This document shows positions 14,948 to 25,232 of a stretch of DNA of 64,000 nucleotides, piece by piece. The number at the start of each line of letters is the position of its first letter. Within the stretch, counting starts at the first letter, position 1. The notes beneath the pieces were generated by a model. It was not told the DNA's origin, made no database searches, and saw only the letters and a program-made list of their open reading frames with translations. Both the position numbers and the translations under genes were made by a program. This stretch comes from Alphaproteobacteria bacterium (GTDB lineage Bacteria; Pseudomonadota; Alphaproteobacteria; UBA9219), in NCBI GenBank assembly GCA_028866275.1, contig JAGWIK010000006.1:1-64000 (forward strand), written 5' to 3'.

Positions 14948-15900
14948 TCCGCGCCATCGTCGCCGGATGCGGGGCTTATTTGCCGGCGCGCGCCGTGTCC
15001 AATGCCGACCTGATCGCGGAAAAACATATCGACAGCGACAGCGAATGGATCGAACGCCGTACCGGCATTACGCAACGCCATATCGCCGCCGCGGACGAAA
15101 AAACATCCGATCTGGCGACCAAAGCGGCGCGCAACGCATTGGCCCACGCCGGCATCGACGCCGCCGCCATTGATGCCGTGATCGTGGCCACCACCACGCC
15201 CGACGACCGCTTTCCCGCCACGGCGGCGAAAGTGCAGGCTGATCTGGGCATCGCCCACGGCTTTGCGTTCGATGTGCAGGCCGTGTGTTCGGGCTTTGTC
15301 TATGCCTTGACGATTGCCGACAATTTCATTCGTTTGGGTCAGGCGCGGTGCGTGCTGGTCATTGGCGCGGAAACTTTTTCCCGCCTGCTCGACTGGAATG
15401 ACCGTACCACCAGCGTCCTTTTCGGCGACGGCGCGGGCGCGGTCGTTTTGCAGGCGCAAGAAGGCGCGGGCACGATGGCGGATCAGGGTATTTTGTCCAC
15501 GCATCTGCACAGCGACGGACGGCATTATGAATTGTTGCGCACCGATGAAGCGGGTTTTGTGCGCATGGACGGCAAGGAAGTGTTCCGCCACGCCGTGACC
15601 AACCTGTCGGACGTCGTCGACGAGGCTTTGGCCGCCACAGGATTGAAGCCCGAACAAATCGATTGGCTGGTTCCGCATCAGGCCAACCAGCGCATCATCG
15701 ACGGCACGGGGAAAAAACTGGGCCTGTCGGCGGAACGCGTGGTGTCGACCATTGCCCTGCACGCCAACACATCGGCGGCGTCCATTCCTCTGGCGCTGGC
15801 CACCGCCGTGCATGATGGCCGTATCCGGCGCGGGCAGATTGTTTTGCTGGATGCGATGGGAGGCGGCTTCACATGGGGCGCGGCGGTTGTCCGCTGGTAG
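14944..15900 (+). CDS. fabH: Beta-ketoacyl-ACP synthase III
   Basis: 318 aa. Starts fatty-acid synthesis by condensing acetyl-CoA with malonyl-ACP. The Cys-His-Asn triad is intact: Cys about 115 in [12 protein letters not shown], His in [10 protein letters not shown] and Asn in [14 protein letters not shown]. The C-terminal strand [13 protein letters not shown] is the normal FabH end. ATGA overlap with plsX. Unusually, the sequence coding for this C-terminal strand plus about 60 bp of 3' flank is repeated three more times immediately downstream (see repeat). ihfA, often next in alphaproteobacteria, is not here. Confidence 0.97.
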
Positions 15901-16250
15901 CTTTCTTTCCTGTCCGCCCATCGCAATCAAGATTTGCGCGCCAGCGCGCGCACGGGGGCGGCGGCTTCACATGGGGCGCGGCGGTTATTCGCTGGTAACC
16001 TTCTTTCCTGTCCGCCCATCGCGATCAAGATTTGTGCGCCAGCGCGCGCACGGGGGCGGCGGCTTCACATGGGGCGCGGCGGTTGTCCGCTGGTAGCCTT
16101 CTTTCCTGTCCGCCCATCGCGATCAAGATTTGCGCGCCAGCGCGCGCACGGGGGCGGCGGGGCTTCACGTGGGGCGCGTCAGTTATTCGCTGGTAGCCTT
16201 CTTTCCTATCCGCCCATCGTATCAAGGTTTGCGCCCCAGCGCGCGCGGAC
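15862..16250. repeat. Four-unit ~98-bp tandem array of the fabH 3' end
   Basis: Units start at about 15862, 15960, 16058 and 16156. Each holds the last 13 codons of fabH (GGCGGCTTCACATGGGGCGC ... CGCTGGTAG/TAA) plus about 59 bp beginning with TTCTTTCCTGTCCGCCCATC and ending in a GC-rich hairpin (GCGCGCCAGCGCGC). Unit 1 is the functional fabH end; units 2-4 fill the whole 352-bp gap to the convergent chvG stop. Units 1 and 3 share GTTGTCCGCTGG, units 2 and 4 share GTTATTCGCTGG, pointing to duplication of a dimer. There are no spacers, so it is not a CRISPR. The hairpins could end transcription from both sides. Confidence 0.93.
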
Positions 16251-22948: not shown

Positions 22949-23770
22949 ATGAACAATGTGCATAATTACGTTCAAACAGCGTCCGGCATCGTCAAGGCGA
23001 TTATTTTTCTTGCGATGGTCGTCATCCTTGTGCCTGTCGCGCTGGTTTACAAACGGCTGCGTCCACAGGACGGGTTCCGTTTGCCGATGCTGTTCCACAA
23101 GCTGACGCTGCGCCTGCTGGGCATGCGGGTGCGGGTGCATGGCGATATCAGCGCGGCTTCGCCGACTTTCTTCGTCGCCAATCACGCTTCCTATCTCGAT
23201 ATTCCCGTTTTGGGGTCTTTGCTGGCGGCGTCCTTCGTCGCCAAATCCGAAGTCGCGGGCTGGCCTTTGTTCGGGTTTTTGTCGAAGGTGCAGAATACGA
23301 TCTTCATCGAACGCCGCGCCGCCCGCGCCGCCGATCAGCGCGAGCAATTGCAAGACCAGTTGGCGCAACGCCGCAATATCATTCTGTTTCCCGAGGGAAC
23401 GTCGTCCGACGGCATGACCGCCCTGCCTTTTAAAAGCAGCCTGTTCGCGATTGTCGAGGATTGCGCGCACGACATCGCCACGGCGATCCAGCCCGTTTCC
23501 GTCACCTGCACCGAGCTGGACGGATTTCCCCTGCTGCGCGAGGAACGCCCGCTTTATGCGTGGTATGGCGACATGACCTTGGGCAAGCATTTATGGCAGG
23601 TCTTCCGGCGCGGCCATTTCACCATTGATGTGATTTTTCACCCGTCGGTGACGCCCGCTGCGTTCGACAACCGCAAGGCATTGGCCACCGCTTGCCAAGA
23701 TATGGTCGCCCGCGGTATTGAGCGGTCCCTGAACGGTCGAAAACCATTGGGCCTGTTGGATAAAGAGTAG
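22949..23770 (+). CDS. olsA: 1-acyl-sn-glycerol-3-phosphate acyltransferase family (OlsA/PlsC-like)
   Basis: 273 aa with one N-terminal membrane segment (about 13-30) and the PlsC catalytic blocks: NHASYLD (H-x4-D), VAKSEVAGWPLFG, IFIERRAAR and ILFPEGTSSDG. Next to olsB it most likely performs the O-acylation of lyso-ornithine lipid; a PlsC role in phosphatidic acid synthesis cannot be excluded. The TAG stop is followed immediately by the ATGATG of the miaB fragment. Confidence 0.9.
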   Translation: MNNVHNYVQTASGIVKAIIFLAMVVILVPVALVYKRLRPQDGFRLPMLFHKLTLRLLGMRVRVHGDISAASPTFFVANHASYLDIPVLGSLLAASFVAKSEVAGWPLFGFLSKVQNTIFIERRAARAADQREQLQDQLAQRRNIILFPEGTSSDGMTALPFKSSLFAIVEDCAHDIATAIQPVSVTCTELDGFPLLREERPLYAWYGDMTLGKHLWQVFRRGHFTIDVIFHPSVTPAAFDNRKALATACQDMVARGIERSLNGRKPLGLLDKE

Positions 23771-23833
23771 ATGATGACCAAAAAATTTCACATTAAAATC
23801 CGGGGTTGCCAGATGCCGTCCGCGAAAGCGTGA
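23771..23833 (+). pseudogene. Vestigial duplicate of the miaB 5' end (20-codon ORF)
   Basis: Directly after the olsA stop, ATGATGACC opens a 20-codon frame reading [20 protein letters not shown] then TGA. From the second ATG, 14 codons match the true miaB start 91 bp downstream ([14 protein letters not shown]), with five nucleotide differences in 42. The match then stops abruptly; flanks are unrelated. It keeps the first iron-sulphur Cys motif (GCQM) but nothing else of MiaB. Either a fossil of a partial duplication, or a coupled leader peptide. It is translatable, since it is coupled to olsA. Confidence 0.8.
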
Positions 23834-23864
23834 ATCGCCGGACAAAAAACGAAAAGAACTTCGC

Positions 23865-25232
23865 ATGACCAAAAAGCTTCATATTAAAACCTGGGGTTGC
23901 CAGATGAATGTTTACGACTCGAGCCGCATGGCCGATGTCGTGGCGCCGCTGGGCTATGCGCCCAGCGAAACCGCCGAAGGCGCGGATCTGGTTATTTTCA
24001 ATACCTGTCACATTCGCGAAAAAGCGTCGGAAAAACTGTTTTCCGAACTGGGCCGCCTGAAACCGATGCAACAGGACAAGGCCGCCAAGGGCGAACGCAT
24101 GATCGTGGCGGTAGCGGGTTGCGTGGCGCAGGCCGAAGGCGCCGAAATTCAACGGCGCGCGCCCTATGTCGATATGGTGTTCGGCCCGCAGACCTATCAC
24201 CAATTGCCGGAGATGATCGCGCGCGTGACGCGCCAGTCGGGGGGCGTGCTGAACACCGAATTCCCGCCCGATTCCAAATTCGACGCGTTGCCGCAACAAA
24301 GAAACGGCGATGTGTCGGCCTTTCTGTCGATACAGGAAGGCTGCGACAAATTCTGTACTTTCTGCGTCGTGCCCTATACGCGCGGCGCGGAATATTCGCG
24401 CGGCGTCGCGGCGATTATCGCCGAAGCCGAAGTGCTGGCGGCCAATGGCGCGCGCGAAATCACCGTGCTGGGCCAGAACGTCAACGCTTTTCACGGCGAG
24501 GGGCCGGACGGCGCGGTTTGGGGGCTGGGCCGCTTGCTGCGGCGGCTGGCCGACATCCCCAATATTAAACGCCTGCGCTATACCACGTCGCATCCGCGCG
24601 ATATGGATGATGATCTGATCGCCGCGCATCGCGACGTGCCGCAATTGATGCCGTTTCTGCATCTGCCCGTGCAAAGCGGGGCCGATGCCGTTCTGGACGC
24701 GATGAACCGCAAGCACACATCCGACGATTACCGCCGCATCATCGACAAATTGCGGGCGGCGCGTCCCGATATCGCGTTGTCTTCGGATTTTATCGTCGGT
24801 TTTCCCGGCGAAACCGATGCCGATCACGCCGCGACGATGAGACTGGTGCGCGATATCGGTTTTGCCTCCGCTTTCTCGTTCAAATACAGCCGCCGCCCCG
24901 GCACGCCCGCCGCCGCCATGGTTCAGCAAGTCCCGGAAACCGTGCAGGATGCGCGGTTGCAGGAATTGCAGGCCTTGCTGCGCGCGCAACAGGAAGCGTT
25001 CAATCAAAGCCTTGTCGGCAAAACCATTCCCGTGCTGTTCGACGGCGTTGCCCGCAACGACAGCGGCAGGCATGAGGGCAGACAGATGCATGGCCGCGCC
25101 CCGTTCATGCAGTCGACCTATATCGCCGCGCCCGCCGCCGCACCGGAAAGGCTGATCGGCCACGAATTGGCCGTGACGATCACGCAGGCGCGGCAAAGCA
25201 GCTTAATAGGTGAATTGGCGCAGGCCGGTTAA
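23865..25232 (+). CDS. miaB: tRNA-2-methylthio-N6-dimethylallyladenosine synthase
   Basis: 455-aa radical-SAM methylthiotransferase acting on i6A37 of tRNAs reading UNN codons. The N-terminal UPF0004 cluster uses Cys12 (WGCQMN), Cys48 (NTCHIR) and Cys86 (AGCVAQ). The SAM cluster is C160-x3-C164-x2-C167 ([10 protein letters not shown]), followed by [13 protein letters not shown]-terminal TRAM-like segment is present ([11 protein letters not shown] to AVTITQA). The start [19 protein letters not shown] is chosen by family agreement. The preceding 91 bp hold a degenerate second copy of this start. Confidence 0.97.

Follow-up and report, generated by a model that had tools for sequence, protein, structure and literature searches.

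In the window, by which we mean the whole 64,000-nucleotide stretch of alphaproteobacterial DNA analysed here, the gene miaB appears to begin twice, and the question that this locus raises is whether the additional start is a leader that serves the gene, the fossil of a duplication or the trace of some other event. An earlier note, made from the letters alone, had described a 14-codon miaB start present twice, 91 bp apart, with the first copy lying on the stop codon of the preceding gene olsA and ending after 20 codons, and with three of five differences between the copies changing the amino acid. Each of these observations was borne out. The upstream copy (copy 1) matches the start of miaB at 23865-23906 (copy 2) in 37 of 42 bases, and three of the five differences are residue-changing (L>F, T>I and W>R), so that a conserved Trp is replaced by Arg in copy 1. 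Since the runner-up match to copy 2 in the 64-kb window, on both strands, reaches only 23 of 42 bases, chance is excluded as the source of this likeness; the same pair was also recovered by repeat finding and by a distance scan for close direct repeats. The letters ATGATG stand directly 3′ of the olsA stop codon TAG, and 31 nt separate the end of the 20-codon ORF from the miaB start. The label olsA is the name given in the earlier note, with Pfam supporting Acyltransferase, and miaB was matched in 55 of 59 relatives (E <= 0.001; paralogues included). The features of the locus are collected in the table below.

Table. Features around the duplicated miaB start (positions in the window)
Feature	Position	Strand	Basis
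Stop codon TAG of the upstream acyltransferase gene (olsA-like, 22949-23770)	23768..23770	+	Pfam Acyltransferase
20-codon ORF, stop TGA 23831-23833	23771..23833	+	Stop coincides with the invariant TGA bulge in the hairpin element
Copy 1, most likely the displaced native miaB start	23774..23815	+	37/42 identity to copy 2
Hairpin element (H), internally deleted; core GTCCGCGA..TGAATCGCCGGAC at 23818-23843	23814..23846	+	Covariance-model match; G005 has an intact homologue at this position
A-rich tail up to the miaB start codon	23844..23864	+	Other elements likewise have A-rich tails 3′
miaB, 455 aa, working start most likely copy 2	23865..25232	+	Pfam UPF0004 and Radical_SAM

A gene start with a second copy close upstream is rare in this genome. 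Among 469 ORF starts of at least 150 aa (120 in the window and, from the same genome, 349 in a 200-kb part of contig C28, with shadow ORFs counted), a copy no more than 500 bp upstream with a score of at least 16 was found for four, namely miaB, two start positions inside a tandem array at the end of fabH and one weak match (18.4). The duplicated start of frr described below is absent from this survey because its ORF is cut at a stretch boundary.

The earlier note had proposed looking for the short ORF in close relatives, and a search of the genus with the window DNA did find a second genome with two miaB starts, the congener G005. There, copy 1 covers 69-75 bp (75 when a few bases before the ATG are included) and is followed by a 94-nt spacer, which holds a complete 68-nt hairpin, and then by miaB; the gene order gltA - acetyltransferase - olsA - miaB, in which the first gene is presumably gltA by our own reading, is common to both genomes. 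Across 34 miaB loci, an upstream second start is present in these two only, scoring 31.0 in the window and 49.2 in G005, while all others score at most 11.8. In G002, which is without the duplication, the miaB start and the olsA stop share the letters ATGA, and in G005 the upstream copy overlaps olsA in this same way. The miaB start of unduplicated relatives therefore corresponds in position to the upstream copy, which makes it most likely, from the comparison of sequences, that copy 1 is the displaced native start of miaB and that copy 2 is the addition and the working start. The copy 1 frame of G005 runs for 53 codons, reads through the hairpin and leaves only 1 nt between its stop and the miaB ATG. 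The note had further suggested gauging coding constraint between the copies, and here the two genomes diverge: the predominance of residue-changing differences in the window speaks against constraint, whereas G005 copy 1, compared with the miaB of the window, shows seven silent changes and no residue change, so that some constraint, or a very recent origin, is possible for G005 copy 1.

Several other observations were made at miaB in these and other genomes. In G007, contig C185 ends exactly at miaB codon 24, where the duplication in G005 ends, and this contig end could hide a third duplicated miaB start. A 14-codon miaB start in G015 was ruled out as a duplication, being a contig end. In G011, a dispersed partial copy of that genome's own miaB start lies on another contig (C24:37831-37884; 72% over residues 5-22), with no convincing hairpin element at that place (best match to the element model 12 bits, E 0.035). 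In G006 (contig C60), a different element, which has the inverted repeats ATTAATCAGTTCATAA..TTATGAACTGATTAAT, lies directly against the miaB ATG. A scan of contigs with MiaB returned 80 alphaproteobacterial loci, the best of them 68% identical and none from this genus. A site-specific island at the 5′ end of miaB was rejected, as neither the G005 nor the window locus has an integrase or cargo between the copies; in a scan of viral contigs with MiaB, one of five candidate stretches was confirmed, with its match inside the gene (residues 80-209) and not at the start. Horizontal replacement of miaB in G005 was not concluded, the miaB tree being mostly unresolved at this level.

What lies between the copies belongs to a family of hairpin elements, here called H. 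A DNA search found related copies of the G005 spacer hairpin elsewhere in G005 and in other members of the genus, and the pattern CCGCGATC-N(8-38)-GTGAATCGC gave 42 matches in four of ten genus genomes (six in the window's own genome, G000, six in G002, seven in G007 and 23 in G005), with no match for the reversed pattern in the same ten genomes. An alignment of 36 of 41 copies, which omits five short or array forms, supports a structure of 27 pairs in which 96.4% of cells pair and 19 pairs are changed on both sides; covariation amounts to 0.593, against 0.157 +/- 0.012 in shuffled alignments and at most 0.138 in slid controls. The base GCGATC/G-ATCGC and a bulge TGA are invariant in all 36 aligned copies, a constancy that is partly built in because the collecting pattern fixes most of those letters. 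The pattern places no constraint on the inner stem, which varies between copies with complementarity kept, and the terminal GTCC is paired with GGAC. Many copies in the genus consist of H, an A-rich tail and a second palindrome, e.g. AGAGCATGATT.. The intact hairpin at the G005 locus folds far better than shuffled sequences (z -8.4). In the window, the top match to a covariance model built from the 36 copies is precisely the spacer element, at 17.5 bits and E 0.022 (E 8.6e-5 when only the local 251 bp are searched with the same model); it is an H that has lost its inner stem, and a similarly shortened H occurs in G007 (C35:4453-4498). Class-wide, 18 of 385 genomes, the window's own included, match the H model at E <= 1e-4, and the hairpin superfamily therefore reaches beyond this genus.

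The inner stem of H compares differently from one orthologous place to another. Between G002:C1:230346 and G005:C104:27992 it has hardly changed from species to species; in the orthologous H of G005 and G007 that precedes a gene we read as tsaB, the inner stem is completely turned over. At the contig ends of G000:C55 and C14, short forms of H stand in tandem arrays of period 57, and these arrays are probably the cause of the assembly breaks there.

The duplication of a gene edge around H is not peculiar to miaB. In the window's genome, a 200-kb distance scan revealed a gene start present twice, its two copies flanking an element. An earlier scan of flanks, using 40 pattern-matched copies, had yielded one clear gene-start case, G005 miaB, along with a contig-end array and one 22-bp match. 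The flank test proper was made on 75 copies of H, comprising 74 places found by the covariance model and the copy in the window, with weaker opposite-strand duplicate rows and the four array copies at the contig ends G000:C14 and C55 omitted; the gapped test needs longer flanks than two of these copies have, so that 73 flank pairs remained. When left and right flanks were compared, seven of the 73 pairs scored at least 29, the 99% point of mismatched flanks being 12.2 (3000 pairings), and the remaining 66 were indistinguishable from the null (Mann-Whitney p 0.18), with no gradient of decayed cases. The seven bridging pairs fall at five loci. Two of these are the miaB genes of the window and of G005, and the others are frr in G000, a T2SSF-domain gene in G002 and the 3′ end of a further gene in G000. 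At frr, confirmed by Pfam RRF and lying in the window's own genome downstream of a gene that we take to be pyrH, the order is start-hairpin-start. The T2SSF-domain gene has three starts alternating with two hairpins, and the 3′ end in G000, which belongs to a putative outer-membrane receptor gene by our reading, is repeated three times around two hairpins. The suggestion of a phenomenon specific to miaB was therefore rejected, the same layout being found at frr, at the T2SSF-domain gene and at a gene 3′ end.

These additional loci can be set against their relatives in the same way. The frr gene was compared at nine loci and the T2SSF-domain gene at seven, and the second start is present only in G000 and only in G002, respectively. 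In the relatives (for frr, G007, G005, G009 and others), there is one start, which follows the same upstream gene directly and lies at the position of the upstream copy; at frr, the exceptions are G002, where the upstream sequence differs, and G006, which has extra intervening sequence. Reading is uninterrupted from the second start in miaB, frr and the T2SSF-domain gene alike. The bridging direct repeats measure about 36-75 bp, and in the T2SSF array, in the 3′-end array and at G005 miaB the left repeat has its end at the edge of H or only a few bases away. At frr, 28 nt separate the left copy from H, and it is the working copy rather than the left one that departs from the relatives. In two distant genomes (G060 and G076), none of 19 copies has a bridging repeat around H, and these, together with the 66 unremarkable pairs of the flank test, imply that a long duplication is not a general outcome of H insertion.

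Two further direct repeats were met with that lie outside this pattern. In the window, at 15858-16246, the 3′ end and stop codon of fabH (Pfam ACP_syn_III) stand in four tandem copies with period 98 and 92% matches; no convincing H was found in this array (best match to the element model 7.4 bits, E 0.075), and it was not counted as H. In G002 (C6:9662-9737), a 76-bp direct repeat with 67 matches recurs at a distance of 591 and looks like the beginning of a signal-peptide-like gene; no match to the element model is listed near it.

Taken together, start-hairpin-start looks like a recurring insertion scar in this genus and not like a purpose-built leader peptide, and we consider it likely that the duplicated miaB start is such a scar, the entry of H and its tail having been coupled to duplication of the target. 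H with a short A-rich tail would have entered the 5′ end of miaB, and its entry would have been coupled to duplication of a stretch that begins near the ribosome-binding site and extends 13-23 codons into the gene, giving the order old start, H, tail, second start and gene body. Because the duplicated stretch spans the gene start, miaB would stay intact, and such insertions could therefore persist at gene edges, that is, at starts and at least one 3′ end. An insertion inside a gene body would be lost, whereas an edge-spanning duplication would leave the gene whole and survive, which would account for the duplicated pieces being gene edges. In the window, the old start would have been cut off after 20 codons by the TGA of H itself and would now be decaying, and H has lost its inner stem. 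The alternative of a fossil duplication, raised in the earlier note, was thus correct in kind but incomplete, as the copies bracket a hairpin repeat and have a twin arrangement in G005.

We infer that duplication and insertion were a single event, for which a staggered cut with fill-in, or template switching during replication at the hairpin, would be candidate routes. The left repeat runs up to H at G005 miaB and in the arrays, and a coupled event is accordingly favoured at those places. Counting against the insertion scar are the shortness of the H remnant in the window, whose whole-window E is only 0.022, the lack of decay in G005 copy 1, the many copies of H without a bridging repeat, the absence of a gradient of decayed cases, the 28-nt gap at frr and the departure of its working copy from the relatives, the fourfold repetition of the fabH 3′ end without a convincing H, and the fact that no mobilizing enzyme for H was found. 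A broader claim, that the H family inserts by copying 40-75 bp of its target, far more than an ordinary target-site duplication, and that gene edges, even that of frr, in this way collect leader-like displaced starts, may be put forward only tentatively and with considerable doubt. The gene frr is essential in well-studied bacteria.

The option that the earlier note had placed beside the fossil, a translated leader in which the short copy 1 ORF, coupled to olsA, sets the translation of miaB, perhaps with feedback, has in its favour that copy 1 adjoins the olsA stop in both species, that the G005 frame stays open through H to within 1 nt of the miaB ATG and that the changes in G005 copy 1 relative to the window's miaB start are all silent. 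It is nevertheless very unlikely in our judgement and was not supported: the peptide, its length and its stop position differ between the window (20 codons) and G005 (53 codons), a second start occurs at 2 of 34 miaB loci, most of the window differences alter residues and one removes the conserved Trp, RNA of the window region folds no better than shuffled sequences (z 0.32), and the same architecture arises at unrelated genes. A leader-peptide attenuator is marked by a conserved short ORF ahead of mutually exclusive RNA structures, which neither such a fold nor an ORF that is not conserved would suggest, and no sign of selection for a leader function appeared in the copy comparisons or in the RNA fold. 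Copy 1 may still have a weak effect on miaB translation, and an influence of the 53-codon frame on translation in G005 is possible. A simple tandem duplication, in which replication slippage doubled the gene start and a hairpin entered the redundant and harmless spacer later, fits the close tandem duplication of the fabH 3′ end in the window's genome, which has no convincing H; we regard it as unlikely, since the left repeat ends at or near H in the T2SSF and 3′-end arrays and at G005 miaB, and slippage would make repeated landing on the junction a coincidence. That an assembly artefact joined two strain variants of the miaB start is highly improbable: the window genome and G005 are indeed multi-contig drafts, and a G007 contig stops exactly at miaB codon 24, but H lies between the copies, which are 12-13% divergent, and the layout is found in a second genome and, as start-hairpin-start, at other genes.

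Within the insertion reading, whether miaB was hit once or twice we infer from comparing the copies of the two genomes. A single ancestral start-hairpin-start event, inherited by the window species and G005, with gene conversion keeping the copies alike, would explain why the same gene and the same element family are involved in both, and H does persist at orthologous places with both flanks homologous (before tsaB in G005 and G007, and in G002 and G005). Between the window and G005, however, 70 of 181 four-fold sites differ in miaB and 43 of 90 in olsA, and at the miaB rate neutral copies that arose before the split are expected to be about 29% different, whereas the copies differ at 5 of 42 positions (P 0.008) and 9 of 69 (P 0.0017); this shortfall speaks for two recent events or for gene conversion. 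Between the two copy 1s there are differences at 9 of 42 positions, more than separate copy 1 from copy 2 inside either genome (5 of 42 in both), and the copied stretch ends at codon 14 in the window and at codon 23 in G005. We regard a single event as nearly, although not quite, an even prospect when set against two insertions.

The interest of the locus is in the mode of insertion and not in the control of miaB. Duplicated gene starts can pass for evolved leader peptides, and here one has been traced to a repeat. Should insertion and duplication happen in a single step, small palindromic repeats would be able to enter even essential operons and leave the genes unbroken. Start-hairpin-start scars in closely related strains also offer a handle on the movement of REP-like repeats that have no known transposase. 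The inner stem of H, variable yet paired around fixed ends, presents a second puzzle.

Several known systems resemble H in part, and the families relevant here are treated in PMC3733652 (GTAG and CGTC palindromic repeats), PMC10969869 (MITEs and Rickettsia palindromic elements) and PMC2267715 (stem-loop families). In the available parts of these three sources, no gene-start duplication around a hairpin repeat was found, nor does the accessible part of PMC3733652 mention gene-edge duplication around a repeat; no title or abstract to this effect was found among the open-access papers searched. A search of eight loci against Rfam gave a sole match, below its gathering score. REP/REPIN and BIME repeats of the GTAG and CGTC superfamilies are, like H, short, dispersed intergenic hairpins, but the 27-pair structure of H carries a conserved bulge of 3 nt, and its inner stem varies freely while remaining paired. 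The available text of PMC3733652 describes CGTC repeats as predominating in alpha-Proteobacteria, reported in Micavibrio and without a dedicated transposase, and gives them an unpaired CGTC tag and stems of 8-9 bp, as opposed to the 27 pairs and paired terminal GTCC of H. The RAYT transposase PF01797 has one match in G005 and none in the H carriers G000, G002 and G007 (the last 82% complete), and a RAYT-driven REP/REPIN was dropped from consideration, PF01797 being missing from three of the four main H carriers.

The MITE-like two-hairpin repeats of alpha-Proteobacteria come closer in that many copies in the genus combine H, an A-rich tail and a second palindrome, an arrangement that we would liken to RIME, and G060 carries near-identical two-hairpin copies bounded by CTAG. 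The two-hairpin copies of G060, however, have no long bridging repeat, and the miaB, T2SSF and 3′-end cases involve H alone; as regards MITE features, H is one long inverted repeat, its bridging repeats are about 36-75 bp long and no transposase is linked to it. Rickettsia palindromic elements share with H that they are palindromic repeats at or in alphaproteobacterial genes, many of them being kept in frame inside the gene product according to the part of PMC10969869 available, whereas the products of miaB, frr and the T2SSF-domain gene are unchanged, since the start is repeated, and hold no in-frame insertion. Islands and prophages that integrate in a gene end, for example at dusA, supply a replacement end. 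In both situations a native end is displaced and the gene is rebuilt by a second copy; integrating islands do so with an integrase and cargo, whereas here there is neither, 49-94 nt lie between the miaB copies, and the arrangement recurs at no fewer than three unrelated genes.
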